This document shows, piece by piece, positions 7,514 through 51,265 of a stretch of DNA of 64,000 nt. The notes beneath the pieces are model-generated. The model was given only the letters and a program-made list of their open reading frames with translations, ran no database searches and was not told the DNA's origin. Origin of the DNA: Aliidiomarina taiwanensis (GTDB lineage: Bacteria > Pseudomonadota > Gammaproteobacteria > Enterobacterales > Alteromonadaceae); NCBI RefSeq assembly GCF_003987015.1, contig NZ_PIPQ01000003.1:124001-188000 (forward strand), in the 5' to 3' direction. The translations under genes and the position numbers were made by a program. Positions within the stretch are counted from its first letter, which is position 1; the number at the start of each line of letters is the position of its first letter.

Positions 7514-7589
7514 TGGCGTCCCCTAGGGGGTTCGAACCCCTGTTACCGCCGTGAAAGGGCGGTGTCCTAGGCCACTAGACGAAGGGGAC
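7514..7589 (-). tRNA. tRNA-Glu (TTC), third copy of the array, variant D loop
   Basis: A 76-base cloverleaf with encoded CCA, anticodon TTC in the loop CTTTCAC, and a T arm around GGGGTTCGAACCCCC. It differs from the two neighbouring tRNA-Glu copies in the D loop (GGCCTAGG instead of GGTTAGG, one base longer) and at one T-loop base. It is the last gene of the tRNA-Ala-Glu-Glu-Glu unit. Confidence 0.96.
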
Positions 7590-7631
7590 GCAGTACTTGC
7601 TGAAACCTTCTGTAAGTGTGTGTTAGTAAGA

Positions 7632-7706
7632 TGGCGTCCCCTAGGGGATTCGAACCCCTGTTACCGCCGTGAAAGGGCGGTGTCCTAACCACTAGACGAA
7701 GGGGAC
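7632..7706 (-). tRNA. tRNA-Glu (TTC), second copy
   Basis: A 75-base tRNA-Glu with encoded CCA and anticodon TTC. It is identical to the copy at 7745-7819 across the mature part, and is separated from it by about 38 bases. Confidence 0.97.
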
Positions 7707-7744
7707 GCGGTACTTACTTAACTTACATTGTGCTTTATGTGAAA

Positions 7745-7819
7745 TGGCGTCCCCTAGGGGATTCGAACCCCTGTTACCGCCGTGAAAGGGCGGTGTCCTA
7801 ACCACTAGACGAAGGGGAC
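7745..7819 (-). tRNA. tRNA-Glu (TTC), first copy
   Basis: A 75-base tRNA-Glu with encoded CCA and anticodon TTC, the first Glu copy downstream of tRNA-Ala. The neighbouring gltX encodes the synthetase that charges this tRNA. Confidence 0.97.
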
Positions 7820-7853
7820 GCAACATATTCACATTGTCAAACCGAAACGTTAT

Positions 7854-7929
<76 letters not shown>

Positions 7930-10249: not shown

Positions 10250-10325
10250 TGGTGGATGGTACTGGGCTTGAACCAGTGACCCCCGCCTTGTAAGGGCGGT
10301 GCTCTACCAACTGAGCTAACCATCC
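10250..10325 (-). tRNA. tRNA-Val (TAC), second copy
   Basis: A 76-base tRNA with encoded CCA, anticodon loop CTTACAA (anticodon TAC) on a CCGCC/GGCGG stem. It is identical to the copy at 10350-10425. Confidence 0.96.
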
Positions 10326-10349
10326 GAAATGTGTACCACCATGTAAAAT

Positions 10350-10425
10350 TGGTGGATGGTACTGGGCTTGAACCAGTGACCCCCGCCTTGTAAGGGCGGT
10401 GCTCTACCAACTGAGCTAACCATCC
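10350..10425 (-). tRNA. tRNA-Val (TAC), first copy
   Basis: A 76-base tRNA with encoded CCA and anticodon TAC, promoter-proximal in a two-gene unit. A 24-base spacer separates it from the identical second copy. Confidence 0.96.
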
Positions 10426-16124: not shown

Positions 16125-16201
16125 TCCCCAGTAGCTCAGTTGGTTAGAGCGGTGGACTGTTAATCCATGTGTCGTTGGTTCGACTCCAACCTGGGGAGCC
16201 A
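16125..16201 (+). tRNA. tRNA-Asn (GTT), first copy
   Basis: A 77-base tRNA with encoded CCA; acceptor TCCCCAG/CTGGGGA, anticodon loop CTGTTAA with anticodon GTT. It is identical to the following copy. Confidence 0.97.
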
Positions 16202-16255
16202 TCGCTAACAAAATAAACCTTCAACATGAAGGTTGTATGATAAGCTTCCAGCAAT

Positions 16256-16332
16256 TCCCCAGTAGCTCAGTTGGTTAGAGCGGTGGACTGTTAATCCATG
16301 TGTCGTTGGTTCGACTCCAACCTGGGGAGCCA
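16256..16332 (+). tRNA. tRNA-Asn (GTT), second copy
   Basis: A 77-base tRNA with encoded CCA and anticodon GTT, identical to the first copy. The 54-base spacer contains a small hairpin (AACCTTCA/TGAAGGTT, about 16216-16233) that may direct processing of the joint precursor. Confidence 0.97.
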
Positions 16333-44507: not shown

Positions 44508-44576
44508 ATGCAGCCGATAAATATCAGTCAGCGACATCATCACCGCCATACTCATGTGCGGTCACTTCTTATTTAA
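44508..44576 (+). CDS. hisL: his operon leader peptide
   Basis: A 22-codon reading frame whose centre reads HHHRHTH: five His in seven codons, the hallmark of a his attenuator. Ribosome stalling at these codons when His-tRNA is scarce should favour the antiterminator fold over the terminator at 44639. AGAGAG before the ATG may serve as ribosome site. It stops 117 bases before hisG. Confidence 0.93.
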
Positions 44577-44638: not shown

Positions 44639-44674
44639 AGCCCCGGGAAGGTTTCCTTCTCGGGGCTTTTTTTT
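44639..44674 (+). terminator. Attenuator terminator of the his operon
   Basis: A long hairpin, AGCCCCG and GAAGG pairing with CCTTC and CGGGGCT around a TTT loop, ends in eight T. It lies 63 bases after the hisL stop and 19 bases before hisG, exactly where a his attenuator should be. Confidence 0.93.
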
Positions 44675-44692
44675 GCCAACAGGACATATTTT

Positions 44693-45592
44693 ATGACAGA
44701 ACCAACACGCCTCACTCTCGCTATACAAAAGTCGGGTCGACTCAGCAAAGAAAGTATTCACTTGCTAAAAGCTTGTGGCATTCAGTTTCAGTTGCATGAA
44801 CAGCGCCTCATTGCACACAGCACCAGTTACCCTATCGACTTACTGCGTGTACGCGACGACGATATCCCTGGGCTGGTTATGGACGGTGTGGTTGACTTAG
44901 GCATTGTCGGTGAAAACGTGTTGGAAGAAGCCCGGCTCGAACGTCAGCAAGAACAAAGAGCCGCCAGCTTCACTGCCCTGCGCCAGCTCGACTTTGGCTA
45001 TTGCCGACTTAGCTTAGCTGTGCCAAACGAGTTCGACTACCAAGGTGTGCAAAGCCTCAACAATAAAAAAATTGCCACCACCTACCCCCGTCTTACGGAA
45101 GCCTTTTTACGCCAGCAAGGCGTAACGGCACAAACCGTGATGCTGACAGGCTCCGTAGAAGTTGCCCCCCGAGCCGGCTTAGCCGACGCCATTTGTGATT
45201 TAGTTTCAACCGGGGCCACCTTAGAAGCGAACGGGCTGAGTGAACAAGACGTTATTTTTCGCTCCCAGGTTAAGCTCATTCAAAGTCAAACCCCGTTGCC
45301 AGAAGCCAAGCAGTCTCTGATTAACAAACTCCTCGACCGGCTCGATGGGGTGCAGCTGGCCAAGGAAAGCAAATACATTATGCTGCACGCACCCACCAAA
45401 GAAGTACAACGAGTGGCCAGTATACTCCCAGGCGCCGAGCGTCCTACGGTACTCCCCCTCAGTTACACGGACGAGCAAGTGGCTATGCACGTGGTCAGCA
45501 CGGAAAATTTATTTTGGGAAACCATGGAACAACTAAAAACTCTCGGCTGCAGTTCCATTCTCGTAATGCCCATTGAAAAAATGATGCGCTAA
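44693..45592 (+). CDS. hisG: ATP phosphoribosyltransferase, long form
   Basis: A 299-residue enzyme that starts histidine synthesis by joining ATP and PRPP. The N-terminal [30 protein letters not shown] and [14 protein letters not shown] motifs are present, and the C-terminal ACT-like domain (about 225-299) for histidine feedback marks the HisZ-independent long form. ATG 44693 ([10 protein letters not shown]) has AGGA upstream; the open frame back to 44627 crosses the terminator and is not used. Confidence 0.96.
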
Positions 45593-45601
45593 GGACCCCT
45601 T

Positions 45602-46945
45602 ATGAGTTATTCAATACCCACGTCTGTTCGCTGGAGCCAGCTTAACGCAAAGCAGCAGCAAAACTTGCTGCAACGGCCCGTGCTCACAACAGACACACGC
45701 TTACAAGCGGCGGTCGCTGACATTTTGGCCACAGTCCGTTGCCAAGGTGACGAAGCAGTGCAAGCCTATAGCCAAGCCTTCGACGGCATGCCAAGTCGCT
45801 TGCTCACCATCACCGCAGACCTTTCTGCTGGGCTCAATGCCCAAGTGAAAAAGGCCATCGACACAGCCTATGCCAATATCCGCCGTTTCCACCAACAGCA
45901 GCAGCCCAGCAATATACAGGTGGAAACCAGCCCTGGCGTACAATGCCAACTCAACTACACCCCGTTTGAGTCCGTCGGTTTGTATATTCCAGGTGGTAGC
46001 GCCGTGCTGCCCAGCACAGTGCTGATGTTAGGGGTTCCTGCACAACTTGCCGGTTGTCAGCAGGTGCTGCTTGCCACGCCGCCCAACCGTCATGGCGACG
46101 TGTCCCCTGCGGTGGCCTATGCTGCACAAAAATGCGGTATCCAACAGGTATTACTAGCAGGCGGTGCACAAGCCATCGCCGCTTTCGCTTACGGCACGGA
46201 AAGTGTTCCCGCCGTACACAAGATATTTGGCCCTGGCAATGCCTATGTCACAGCCGCAAAACAACAAGTGAGCCAACAGTTCGGTGGCCCCGCCTTCGAC
46301 ATGCCAGCAGGCCCTAGTGAACTGCTGGTGGTGGCCGACAGCAGCGCCGAACCCGACTTTATTGCAGCCGATCTGCTGTCCCAAGCAGAGCATGGCCCCG
46401 ACTCACAAGTTCTCTGTGTGTCGCCCTCGCGTTCCTTGCTCCAAGCCGTAGAGAAAGCGTTACAACAGCAAGTGACCAGCCTGCCTCGACACGACATTGC
46501 ATTGCAGGCGCTTTCCCAAAGCCGACTGATCGAAACCGACAGTTTGGCCCAAGCCTATGCCATTAGCCAAAACTACGCCCCTGAACACCTCAGTGTGCAA
46601 GTTGCCCCTGAACGCGAGGCTGAGGCCCTGCAACATCTCACCCGAGCGGGCTCCATTTTTGTGGGCCACTACACGCCCGAGTCGGGGGGAGACTACGCCA
46701 CAGGCACCAACCATGTACTGCCCACATATGGCTTTGCCAAAAACTACAGCAGCTTAGGTTTACTCGACTTTTATCGCCGCTTCACAGTGCAGCGCATCAG
46801 CCCGCAAGGGCTCGCCGAGCTAGGTGGCACCATTCAGTGCTTAGCCCAGCTTGAAGGATTAGAAGCCCATGCCCGTGCTGTTAGCCTGCGCCTCCAAAGT
46901 GAACGCTTCCGCACCGACAGCACCTTAACAGGAGTTTCTTCATGA
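45602..46945 (+). CDS. hisD: Histidinol dehydrogenase
   Basis: A 447-residue zinc enzyme that oxidises histidinol to histidine in two NAD-dependent steps. Conserved stretches include GLYIPGGSAVLPSTVLML, KIFGPGNAYVTAAK and the catalytic-base/zinc region YAPEHLSVQV with GHYTPESGGDYATGTNHVLPT. It is nine bases after hisG and overlaps hisC by four bases. Confidence 0.97.
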   Translation: MSYSIPTSVRWSQLNAKQQQNLLQRPVLTTDTRLQAAVADILATVRCQGDEAVQAYSQAFDGMPSRLLTITADLSAGLNAQVKKAIDTAYANIRRFHQQQQPSNIQVETSPGVQCQLNYTPFESVGLYIPGGSAVLPSTVLMLGVPAQLAGCQQVLLATPPNRHGDVSPAVAYAAQKCGIQQVLLAGGAQAIAAFAYGTESVPAVHKIFGPGNAYVTAAKQQVSQQFGGPAFDMPAGPSELLVVADSSAEPDFIAADLLSQAEHGPDSQVLCVSPSRSLLQAVEKALQQQVTSLPRHDIALQALSQSRLIETDSLAQAYAISQNYAPEHLSVQVAPEREAEALQHLTRAGSIFVGHYTPESGGDYATGTNHVLPTYGFAKNYSSLGLLDFYRRFTVQRISPQGLAELGGTIQCLAQLEGLEAHARAVSLRLQSERFRTDSTLTGVSS

Positions 46946-48066
46946 GCAGCATTCAAAACTTATTACGCCCTCATTTACGAGGCATGCAGGCCTACCCCTC
47001 GGCCCGCCGTAGTATGTCCGGCGGCACCTTGTGGTTGAACGCCAATGAGTCGCCCTACCCAGGCCCTGGAGGAGAAAGCACTACGGCAAACAACAACCGC
47101 TACCCGAATTTCCAGTCCACCGACCTGAACCGTGCGTATGCGGCCTATGCGGGCATTGCGGCCAACCAACTACTCAGCCACCGTGGCAGCGACGAAGGCA
47201 TTGACTTGCTTATTCGTGCGTTTTGCCAACCCTGTGAAGACGCTGTGCTTATTTGCCCACCCACCTATGGCATGTACGCTATTGCCGCGCAGTTAAATAA
47301 CAGCCCCGTTGTAACGGCTCCTTTGCTGCAACAAGGTAATGACTTCCAACTCGACCTGGCTGCCATTGAAGACGCCCTGAACCCAAGTGCCCCAAAACAG
47401 CCTCGGGTGAAGGTTATTTTCTTATGTAACCCTTCGAACCCCCTCGGCAACCTGTTAGAGCCGAAGGACATCGAACAAGTCCTCGCCCTCGCCGCCGGCA
47501 AAGCCATTGTGGTGGTGGACGAAGCCTACCTTGAGTACGCAGAAACCAGCACCCAGCAAACCACCGCCGAGCTCAGCTGGGCTTCCCGTATAGACACCTA
47601 TGCCAACTTGGTGGTGCTGCGCACCCTATCGAAAGCCTTTGGCTTAGCAGGCATACGCGTTGGCTTTACCTTGGCCCAAGCGGAACTCATTCAAGCACTC
47701 GAGCCCGTGTTAGCGCCATACCCGCTGCCCGAGCCAAGCATACAGGTCGCCACCCAAGCTCTCGGCCTCGACGCCCTTATTCCTATGCGCCAGCAAGTCA
47801 TTGAAGCGGTCACTGAACGTCAGCTACTGGCGCAGAAACTGCAAGCATTGTCTTGGGTAAAAACGGTATTCCCAAGCACCACCAATTTTATTTTATTGCA
47901 GGTGCCAGAAGCAGAAGCGGTGATGGCCTATTGCCAAGCTGCGGGCGTGCTGCTGCGCCAATTTAAATTTCCTTCCTTAGGGCCATGTATTCGCATCAGC
48001 GTCGGCAGCCCCGAGGAAAATGAACAACTTATGCGTATTCTTTCAGGTTTTGGAGAAACACAATGA
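46942..48066 (+). CDS. hisC: Histidinol-phosphate aminotransferase
   Basis: A 374-residue PLP enzyme (fold type I). The Schiff-base Lys is in [15 protein letters not shown], with NPSNPLG and the phosphate-binding [10 protein letters not shown] at the N-terminus. It converts imidazole-acetol phosphate to histidinol phosphate. It overlaps both hisD and hisB by four bases. Confidence 0.96.
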
Positions 48067-49127
48067 ACCCTATTTTATTTATCGACCGCGACGGCACACT
48101 TATTGCTGAGCCCGCCAGTGACAAACAAGTAGATCGCCTCGATAAACTCGAATATGAGCCGGGTGTTATTCCCGCTTTGCTTGCGCTACAGGCAGAAGGT
48201 TTCCGTTTGGTTATGGTCAGTAACCAAGACGGCCTTGGCACCGACAGCTTTCCTCAAGCCGACTTTGACGCGCCCCACCAGGCCATGATGGCGCTTTTTC
48301 GCAGTCAGGGCATCACCTTCGACGAGGTGCTTATTTGCCCGCACTTTGACAGTCAAAACTGCAGCTGTCGCAAGCCCAAACTGGGGCTGGTGCAAAACTA
48401 CCTACAACAGGGCCAAGTCGACTTTCAGCGCTCCGCTGTTATCGGCGACCGGCAAACCGACCTGCAAATGGCCGCGGCCATGGGAATTCGCGGGCTGCTC
48501 TATAACCGCAACACCCTAGGTTGGCCGGAGTTAGTGCGCACCCTCACGGGGCCCGAGCGCACCGCCAGTGTCACGCGTGTCACCCGCGAAACGGCCATTG
48601 AGGTGTCGGTGAATTTAGACCAAACCCAGCCCTTAGCCTTTGACACAGGCATCGGCTTTTTCGACCACATGCTCGAACAGGTGGCCACCCATGGCGGTTT
48701 TTCCTTACAGGTGAGCGTCAAAGGCGACTTGCACATCGACGACCACCACACAGTAGAAGACACCGCCTTGGCCCTCGGCGAGGCCATGCGTAAAGCGCTG
48801 GGCAACAAACGTGGCATCGGCCGCTTTGGTTTTGCCCTGCCCATGGACGAGTGCCGGGCCGAATGCCTTATCGACTTATCAGGCCGCCCTTGGTTGGAGT
48901 TTTCAGCAAACTTTAGTCAAGCACAGGTTGGTCAACTCAGTACAGAGATGGTGCCCCACTTCTTTCGTTCCTTTGCAGACAGTATGAAAGTTAGCCTGCA
49001 CCTAAGCACCACCGAAGGGAACAGCCATCACCAAGTAGAAAGCCTGTTTAAAGTGTTTGGCCGGGCTTTGCGCCAAGCCATTCGCAAAGAAGGCAACGAA
49101 CTGCCATCCACTAAGGGCGTACTCTAA
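48063..49127 (+). CDS. hisB: Bifunctional imidazoleglycerol-phosphate dehydratase / histidinol-phosphatase
   Basis: A 354-residue fusion of two activities. The N-terminal HAD phosphatase (about 1-165) has FIDRDGTLI with catalytic Asp8 and Asp10 and a zinc loop [15 protein letters not shown]. The C-terminal dehydratase (about 166-354) has the metal-binding motifs [10 protein letters not shown] and [10 protein letters not shown]. This fused form is typical of enterobacteria and relatives. hisA follows after only 15 bases; hisH, which sits here in E. coli, is missing. Confidence 0.97.
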
Positions 49128-49142
49128 CCAAAGGAACACAAA

Positions 49143-49898
49143 ATGCTTATTCCAGCACTCGATATTATCGAAGGACAGGTAGTGCGCCTACAGAAAGGCG
49201 ACTTTAACCAACAAACCAATTATCACTCGGACCCTGTGGCCGTGGCACGTGACTATCAAGCCCAAGGCGCTGACTATTTACACCTGGTTGATCTTGACGG
49301 CGCGCGCGCCCCTAAACTGCGCCAGCTAGCACTCATCACCCAGCTTGTGCAACAACTTGATATTCCCGTACAGGTCGGCGGCGGCGTCCGTCATCGCGAA
49401 GACATTCAGCAGTTATTAGCTGCCGGGGTGGCCCGGGTTGTTATTGGCTCCACAGCGGTCAACCAACCCACCCTCGTGAAGGAGTGGTTTCAAGAGTTCG
49501 GTGGCGAACGTTTGGTCCTCGCCCTCGATGTCAATATTAATCAGCAAGGCCAGCGCATGTTGGCCACCCACGGCTGGCAAACCACCTCGCAACAGCAACT
49601 CGAGCCCTGCTTGCAAGCTTATCTCGACGTGGGCTGCCAACATGTGTTGTGCACCGACATAAGCCGCGACGGTATGCTGCAAGGCAGTAACGTGGCGTTG
49701 TACCAAGAGCTCAAGCAGGCCTTTCCAAGTATTCAATGGCAGGCTTCCGGCGGTGTCGCCAGCTTAGCCGAGCTCACTGAGTTACAAGCAGCCCAATGCG
49801 ACAGCGTTATTTTAGGCAAGTCGCTTCTTACCAATACATTCACACTTGCGGAGGCCCTAGCATGTTGGAACAACGCATCATCGCCTGTCTCGATGTAA
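49143..49898 (+). CDS. hisA: ProFAR isomerase (HisA)
   Basis: A 251-residue TIM barrel that isomerises 5'-ProFAR to PRFAR. The catalytic Asp pair is in [13 protein letters not shown] and CTDISRDGM, with phosphate-binding QVGGGVR and QASGGVAS. The end overlaps the start of hisF by 37 bases, longer than usual coupling. Confidence 0.96.
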
Positions 49899-51265
49899 AT
49901 AACGGCAAAGTTGTCAAAGGCACACAGTTTCGACAACACGAAATTATGGGCGATATTCTGCCCTTGGCGGAAAAATACGCAGCAGAAGGAGCCGACGAAC
50001 TGGTGCTCTACGACATTAGCGCCAGCGTTGAACAACGGGTCGTGGATAAGTCATGGATTCAAGACATTGCCGAACGCATTCACATTCCCTTGGCTGTTGC
50101 AGGCGGCATCAATAGCGTCGAACAAGCACGAGAAGTTCTTGCTTATGGTGCCGCTAAAGTGTCTATTAACTCCCCTGCATTGCAGCGACCCGAACTAATA
50201 AATGAATTGGTGGCTGCCTTTGGCTCGGACAAAGTTGTGGTGGGCATAGACAGTTTCTACCATGCAGAAACTAACAGCTACCAAGTCCTGCAATTTACGG
50301 GCGACGAAAACCGCACGGAAACGACCCAGTGGAACACCTTCGACTGGGTAAAGGAAGTGGTAAAGCGAGGCGCCGGTGAAATTGTATTGAACTGCATGAA
50401 CCAAGACGGTGTTCGCCAAGGTTACGACATTGAACAACTACAGGCGGTGCGCGCCATTTGCCCAGTGCCTTTGGTAGCCTCTGGAGGGGCTGGCAGCATT
50501 CAGCACGTGCGTCAGGTGTTTGCCGAAGCCCGCGTCAATGGTGCCTTACTGGCTTCTGCTTTACATAAAAACCTGGTCAGCCTTCGCGTCTTACAGGCGG
50601 ACCTTCGTGTAAATCCTGTGCGCGCAACCTCCGTGTGCACAAACAGCTTGAACTTAGATACCCTAGCATGGCAGAAAATGAACCAGCTGTTACCCTGCGT
50701 GGTGCAATGTGTGTCCACCGGACACGTGCTGATGCAAGGGTATATGGACCGGGCGTCGGCTGAGGCCACCTTAGCTTCTGGTCAGGTTACTTTTTTTAGC
50801 CGCAGCAAAAACCGGTTGTGGCGCAAAGGCGAAACATCAGGAAACACCTTAGATCTGGTCGAGCTCACCGCCGACTGCGACCGCGACGCACTGCTCGCTT
50901 TGGTACGCCCTCAAGGGCCCACCTGCCATTTAGGCAGCACCAGCTGCTGGCAAACGCAAACGCCTTTAGCCACAGCGCCCTACACGCAGCTGGCGACACT
51001 TGAACAGACCATTGCCGCACGCAAACAGGCCGCTGCGCCAGACACCAGCTACACTGCCCAACTGTTTGCTGAAGGGGTGCAGCGCTGCGCTCAAAAAGTG
51101 GGTGAAGAAGGTGTGGAGGTGGCGTTAGCTGGCGTGGTAGAAGACGACGCGGCCTTGCTCAATGAAAGTGCAGACTTGCTCTACCACCTTCTGGTGTTAC
51201 TGCAAGCCCGAAACCTAAGCCTCGCAGATGTCAGCAAGGTATTAGCCACGCGGGCTCAAGCTTAA
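49862..51265 (+). CDS. HisF-HisI-HisE fusion: imidazole glycerol phosphate synthase cyclase, PR-AMP cyclohydrolase and PR-ATP pyrophosphohydrolase in one chain
   Basis: A single 467-residue frame. Residues 1 to about 250 are HisF: catalytic Asp11 in [13 protein letters not shown], the second Asp in VVVGIDSFY, and ASGGAG for phosphate; residues matching the HisH interface (Arg5, the Lys of [10 protein letters not shown], the Glu of GAGEIVLN) are kept. About 265-370 is HisI with [21 protein letters not shown] and zinc cysteines in DCDRD, TCH and SCW. About 375-467 is HisE with [13 protein letters not shown]. No stop or frame change lies at the joint. HisIE fusions are common; a chain that also carries HisF is not something I know as standard. 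ATG 49862 has GGAGG seven bases upstream. Confidence 0.93.

Follow-up and report, generated by a model that had tools for sequence, protein, structure and literature searches.

A HisF-HisI-HisE fusion in an Aliidiomarina histidine operon without hisH

HisF and HisH are the textbook model of ammonia tunnelling and allostery, and HisF needs HisH to use glutamine. The his operon of Aliidiomarina taiwanensis raises the question of what becomes of HisF when hisH is gone from its operon. This operon lies in the window, that is, the whole 64,000-nucleotide stretch analysed here (contig NZ_PIPQ01000003.1, positions 124,001 to 188,000), and runs in the order leader peptide, attenuator-like hairpin, hisG, hisD, hisC, hisB, hisA and hisF-IE, as follows.

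44508..44576, + strand: his leader peptide of 22 aa with five His codons, recognized from its translation, a His run and the downstream hairpin
44639..44667, + strand: terminator-like hairpin with a T run, candidate his attenuator (13 pairs, nine of them G-C), from a consensus scan only, which gave 14 such sites in the region against 10.2 expected
44693..45592, + strand: hisG, 299 aa, named from sequence; same length as hisG of the congeneric genome G014
45602..46945, + strand: hisD, an ORF named from sequence and operon order
46942..48066, + strand: hisC, an ORF named from sequence and operon order
48063..49127, + strand: hisB, bifunctional HolPase-IGP dehydratase (NCBIfam NF003937, 588.4 bits)
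49128..49142, + strand: gap of 15 nt in the ORF list at the usual place of hisH, where relatives have the gene
49143..49898, + strand: hisA (TIGR00007, 243.9 bits, above cut-off), overlapping the fusion gene by 37 nt
49862..51265, + strand: hisF-hisI-hisE fusion gene, one open frame of 467 codons plus stop (467 aa), no internal stop
49862..50611, + strand: HisF domain, residues 1-250 of the fusion, from Pfam and NCBIfam; a complete barrel in the AlphaFold model
50612..50647, + strand: linker, residues 251-262, with pLDDT <50 at 254-260; G014 has 15 fewer residues in this region
50648..50977, + strand: HisI (PRA-CH) domain, about residues 263-372 (PF01502, 8e-30, core 291-364); the boundary with HisE is approximate
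50978..51265, + strand: HisE (PRA-PH) domain, about residues 373-467, and stop (PF01503, 1.6e-18, core 378-464)

The ORF-list version of hisG begins earlier, at a TTG, and an Rfam scan at the gathering threshold gave no match for the his leader. A His-rich leader with an attenuator is typical of the enterobacterial his operon. The window resembles that operon in its leader and attenuator-like hairpin, its gene order, its bifunctional hisB and its joined hisI and hisE (hisGDC[NB]HAF[IE] in enterobacteria; PMC8305728), but differs in having no hisH and in fusing hisF to hisIE. The interval between hisB and hisA, where only 15 nt are left in the window and hisH is absent, holds a HisH match in 74 of 80 named loci; none was found in the other six, most of which are cut short upstream. 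The preliminary description of this DNA had concentrated on the fusion and overlooked the loss of hisH from the operon, which alters what the fusion means. In one of the loci with a HisH match, from a Coxiellaceae MAG (L088:5636-6949, +), HisH and HisA matches fall in a single frame of 324 aa, with a further HisA piece after it: either a fusion or a frameshift.

We found that the fusion is real and consists of a complete HisF barrel, a short linker and a full HisIE. An upstream ATG at 49796 would give a longer frame, but the homologues agree with a start (MLAKRI...) at the 49862 ATG, which lies 37 nt before hisA ends. Pfam placed His_biosynth at residues 5-238, PRA-CH at 291-364 and PRA-PH at 378-464. 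With NCBIfam TIGR00735 the HisF part (residues 1-248) scored 293.1 bits against a whole-protein cut-off of 294.55, and 295 in the genome search, while the HisF part of the G014 counterpart scored 310.6 bits. The HisIE part (263-466) matched NF002747 at 255.1 bits, above the cut-off of 187, with both domains present. Against the profiles of the sugar-amidation HisF paralogues, both scores lay below the cut-offs (WbuZ, 217.9 against 299.7 bits; AglZ-HisF2, 182.8 against 310 bits). Together with the residue checks given below, these matches bear out the original observation that HisF, HisI and HisE share one frame with their motifs intact. No stop or frameshift, which had been named as something that would refute the fusion, was seen in the frame near the joint, and G014 has a one-frame counterpart. 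In G014 the HisF tail runs straight on into HisIE, in agreement with the suggestion that a small change at the joint would be sufficient.

An AlphaFold model of the fusion from a 28-row alignment (mean pLDDT 87.3, pTM 0.59) contains the complete HisF barrel, whose final helix spans 241-250, then a segment of low confidence (254-260) and a HisIE that is folded; at this pTM, domain placement is too unsure to position HisIE relative to the HisH face. Foldseek matched the two halves to separate HisF chains and HisIE chains. No solved structure covering both HisF and HisIE was present among the 50 Foldseek matches listed, nor among 60 listed otherwise.

The same one-frame architecture is present in the congeneric Aliidiomarina genome G014, at 73-74% amino-acid identity, and among 17 genus genomes we found it in that genome and the window's own only. 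The fusion occurs in two of 395 family genomes among the matches listed, in a search in which a fusion with a long linker could appear as two matches; the possibility, raised at the outset, that it is widespread does not hold for the family. In that search 46 of the rows listed span the full query and are stop-free only in the two fusion genomes, indicating that the fusion is not a product of chance. Long open frames had led us to suspect fusions in five further genomes (G001, G013, G015, G029 and G148), and reading their ORFs showed hisF and hisIE to be separate in all five. The fusion was found in none of the 80 named loci, a set that may leave out the window's own genome. A scan of 276 class genomes at E 1e-100 returned only the window's own fusion; a diverged fusion would miss this threshold, and the scan gives weak support for rarity outside the family. 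Between the two fusions dN is far below dS in both the HisF and the HisIE domains. For the HisF domain, dN was 0.18 and dS 1.67, comparable to the values for the other his genes (dN 0.11-0.33, with dS near or past saturation). A single origin of the fusion, in the common ancestor of the two Aliidiomarina lineages, is most likely.

The gene hisH is present in B. subtilis. The HisH profile put 13 of 14 known genomes above its cut-off and B. subtilis below it, so the profile can miss a HisH; with it, HisH was above the cut-off in 389 of 393 family genomes that are at least 97% complete. Two of the remaining four, G343 and G363, also lack a hisF match and were rejected as HisH-free pathways, and the other two, G014 and G368, have one. 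The operon of G014 (L040) is an intact hisG-D-C-B-A-FIE with a His-rich leader upstream, 2 nt between hisB and hisA and no hisH, and the genome has one hisF copy. A profile search of G014 for HisH gave nothing above the cut-off, and a search with a congener's HisH gave a best E of 0.013, to parts of two GuaA-like frames of 534 and 551 aa. These frames lie on one contig (L134:631-2232 and L135:542-2194, +) and are possible alternative ammonia sources, as is a 228-aa frame with a weak HisH-profile match at G014:C2:127733-128101. G368, from the genus that includes Pseudidiomarina mangrovi, has hisG-D-C-B-A-F-IE in order (L133, which is G368 C12:74500-82500), with hisF and hisIE unfused and six His in a row in its leader. 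No hisH was found in its operon, nor in the genome by the profile or a second search.

Judging from these two genomes, an otherwise intact operon appears to have lost hisH on at least two occasions, one accompanied by a fusion and one not. The loss in G368 indicates that the disappearance of hisH and the fusion are not obligately linked. Both genomes are drafts (about 50 contigs in G014 and about 30 in G368) in which hisH could sit in a gap, although in each of them the site that it normally occupies is contiguous and empty. Either of the two could also be a histidine auxotroph.

The window's genome (2.53 Mb, 29 contigs) has two other HisF-HisH pairs, on contigs C1 and C11, and both HisH proteins score above the profile cut-off.

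C1 393169-394518 (L005:5143-6525, - strand on L005): hisH-hisF pair, complete and above curated his cut-offs
L006:2319-4863, - strand (C11): WbuX-type amidotransferase, HisH-like protein and AglZ/HisF2-type HisF in a surface-sugar cluster

The C11 pair is a sugar-amidation set. The C1 pair has its own His-rich leader upstream, MTLNQTAVHHHHHSPE, and lies between recD and an isochorismatase-family gene that was absent from all 16 other genus genomes at E 1e-40. No hisH-hisF pair was found beside recD (about 1.5 kb of flank) at 13 other genus loci, three genomes with split recD matches having been left out, and this makes the C1 pair look acquired. The pair is apparently of foreign origin, and within the genus it was seen in the window's genome only. 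In trees, C1 HisH falls outside Idiomarinaceae and C1 HisF near Chromatiaceae/Alkalimonas, on very long branches (2.0 and 2.33). With two HisH above the cut-off elsewhere in this genome, the window's species does not need a HisF that works without HisH.

The HisF domain of the fusion lineage has changed faster than its neighbours. In the HisF tree the two fusion domains form one clade (100/100) inside Idiomarinaceae, with a stem length of 1.06 changes per column. We calculated a relative distance for each protein as its distance to 14 Pseudidiomarina/Idiomarina loci over that of 14 other Aliidiomarina loci; the loci were hand-chosen from the 80, and L106, one of the 14 Aliidiomarina, was kept although the HisF tree places it on the side of Pseudidiomarina. 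For HisF this value was 1.64 in the window's genome and 1.52 in G014, compared with 1.03 and 1.04 for HisB, 1.10 and 0.95 for HisA, and 1.08 and 1.04 for HisIE. HisF has thus evolved about 1.5-1.6-fold faster in the fusion lineage, and HisA, HisB and HisIE have not. At 125 columns conserved in at least 95% of the 80 relatives, the window's HisF domain departs at 17 and that of G014 at 11 (16 and 10 of 124 without one column that was truncated in this comparison), and G368 HisF and C1 HisF at 5 each. Because it is these 80 relatives that define the columns, their own departures are biased low (the median is 0, with a maximum of 16 in a distant relative).

The residues that changed are unevenly shared. 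Both fusions keep the catalytic Asp11 and Asp130, as well as Gly82, Asn103, Asp176, Gly177, Gly203, Ala224 and Ser225 (T. maritima numbering), which we take to be the phosphate site. R5, E46, K99 and E173, presumably the ammonia gate, are kept in all HisF copies checked. The substitutions D98A and Q123D occur in the window's genome only; D and Q are found in 80 of 80 relatives, and G014 and G368 keep both. F216V (T. maritima F210) is common to the two fusions, and F is present in 79 of the 80 relatives. Position 124 is changed in all three lineages and says little, because Ala also stands there in T. maritima and in one relative. The conserved C-terminal Arg, which we take to be fR249, is absent in G014, where the tail is replaced, and comes two residues early in the window's genome, where the tail is shifted. 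Catalytic roles of the HisF Asp residues have been described (PMC11350729). Residue D98 touches HisH in the active complex (PMC8115485), and D98A is among the mutations that dramatically alter PRFAR-induced allostery (PMC10115891). fR249 lies at the HisH interface, and F210A weakens HisF-HisH binding about 3-fold, though F210 itself is off the interface (PMC9032424).

The sequences show a true fusion in an operon without hisH, and we give an about even chance to the reading that its product is a trifunctional HisF-HisI-HisE whose HisF would work on free ammonia without HisH. Under this reading hisH would have been lost first, from a his operon that was ordinary in other respects and had a His leader. 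HisF, released from HisH, would have changed fast and later settled under constraint, and its tail would then have been joined to HisIE. The fused HisF would make IGP and AICAR from PRFAR using free ammonia rather than ammonia tunnelled from HisH, and HisE and HisI on the same chain would carry out steps 2 and 3. The window's species would have gained a foreign hisH-hisF pair, restoring a glutamine-using IGP synthase. We infer the order of events, the use of ammonia and the activity of the chain, and the foreign pair could instead have come first and then been lost in G014. The fusion lineage may represent a histidine pathway that in nature came to run without HisH. D98 and Q123 stand against the HisH-free reading, since both are kept in G014 and G368, unlike what long HisH-free evolution predicts. 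A wider version is plausible, if short of probable: Idiomarinaceae would have lost HisH at least twice with the pathway kept, one lineage rebuilding its fused HisF as a stand-alone ammonia-fed cyclase, and one member of that lineage later taking up a foreign hisH-hisF pair.

HisB does step 6 of the pathway. The chain had been credited with steps 2, 3 and 5-6; steps 2, 3 and 5 stand, while step 6 does not, as HisF corresponds to step 5 only (PMC8305728).

Free ammonia as a substrate has precedents. At pH 9-10, more of the external ammonia is free NH3. The growth optimum of a named congener, A. halalkaliphila, is pH 9-10 (PMC9558577). In vitro, ammonium by itself is a substrate for HisF at basic pH (PMC11350729), and high ammonium rescued a hisH mutant of K. 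pneumoniae (PMC5919458). Growth of C. glutamicum without hisH has been cited as unpublished, with the comment that no further enzyme of this kind had been reported (PMC3896937). Apparent work of HisF in vivo without HisH is what we propose for the window's fusion as well; Corynebacterium glutamicum differs in that it keeps hisH, and the same text describes no such fusion.

An unlikely alternative, yet one to be taken seriously, is that in the window's species the C1 HisH-HisF does the cyclase work and the fused HisF is a redundant, drifting passenger, kept for folding or stability as the N-terminal part of a needed HisIE chain, hence D98A and Q123D. The completeness of the C1 pair, its scores above curated cut-offs and its own His leader all suit this account, as does the contrast between 5 departures of 125 in C1 HisF and 17 in the fusion (16 of 124 without the truncated column). 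Drift is harder to reconcile with a HisF-domain dN/dS between the two fusions that is like that of other his genes and with the retention of the active-site residues checked, and G014, with no other hisF, is left unexplained.

It is improbable that the fused HisF docks a glutaminase in trans, which would be C1 HisH in the window's genome and a class-I amidotransferase, for example of GuaA or TrpG type, in G014. The retention of R5, E46, K99 and E173 in all copies, and of D98 and Q123 in G014, would be expected if a partner still docked, and G014 offers candidates in its GuaA-like frames and the 228-aa frame with its weak HisH-profile match. However, D98 and Q123 are lost in the window's genome and F216 in both fusions, and the C-terminal tail that carries the conserved Arg has been replaced in G014, while in the window's genome it is shifted. 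A review also considers it unlikely that other amidotransferases stand in for HisH (PMC3896937).

Channelling of intermediates, which the preliminary description had put forward, fares worse. That the fusion was selected for channelling between steps 2, 3 and 5 is very improbable: the three activities do sit on one chain, but step 4 lies between HisI and HisF and is carried out by HisA, a separate protein from a separate gene, which makes a direct form unlikely, and in the AlphaFold model the linker is of low confidence and the domains are placed with little certainty (pTM 0.59). An assembly or sequencing artefact joining two genes has next to no likelihood, since the window being part of a draft contig is the one point in its favour that we found, and the 73-74% identical G014 fusion, with codon-level constraint in both domains, excludes sequencing error.

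Returning to the fusion with loss of hisH, we compared it with described systems. It adds a bacterial HisF-HisIE architecture to the known his fusions; hisF-hisIE is not among the five his fusions in the available text of Fani et al. 2007 (PMC1963479). Yeast HIS7 and bacterial HisHF (PMC1963479) likewise hold HisF within a multifunctional chain. HIS7 joins the glutaminase to HisF, whereas in the window the glutaminase gene is gone from the operon and other pathway domains have been added. On the question of whether the fusion had already been described, HisA/F-HisIE fusions are reported from four archaeal metagenome assemblies (cluster 787.1; PMC11237513). Likened by architecture, these too have a HisA/HisF-type barrel followed by HisIE in one frame; they differ in coming from DPANN and unclassified archaea, in having the barrel written as HisA/F and, as far as the available text goes, in having no stated link to loss of hisH. 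The C1 pair recalls the extra hisF2-hisH2 copies of three Bacteroidota/Chlorobiota in being a second hisH-hisF outside the operon, but the accessible part of that source does not say that the operon copies are lost (PMC8305728), whereas hisH is gone from the window's operon. Our literature search, whose coverage left out most subscription papers, turned up neither a reported bacterial hisF-hisIE fusion nor a reported natural his operon without HisH.

If the fused HisF does work on free ammonia, a HisH-free lineage with HisF under selection would reveal which HisF residues serve HisH only, and would tell whether free ammonia suffices in a natural cell. It would be a natural counterpart of the ammonium-only HisF pathway, which in the available texts is otherwise found only for mutants (C. 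glutamicum, PMC3896937; K. pneumoniae, PMC5919458) and in vitro.

HisA-HisI-HisE fusions of 410-412 aa were also observed in three other families of the same order, at L158:521-1759 (-) in G039, L159:1149-2381 (-) in G046 and L160:2335-3570 (+) in G036; in these genomes hisH and hisF are separate and present. They are like the window's fusion in that HisIE is fused behind a his-pathway barrel, and differ in that the barrel reads as HisA, the product is about 410 aa long and both hisH and hisF are retained as separate genes. They are a second, independent kind of barrel-HisIE fusion, and they indicate that the joining of a barrel to HisIE happened more than once. Elsewhere in the window there are three tRNA clusters, with three Glu and one Ala at 7514-7929 (-), two Val at 10250-10425 (-) and two Asn at 16125-16332 (+).
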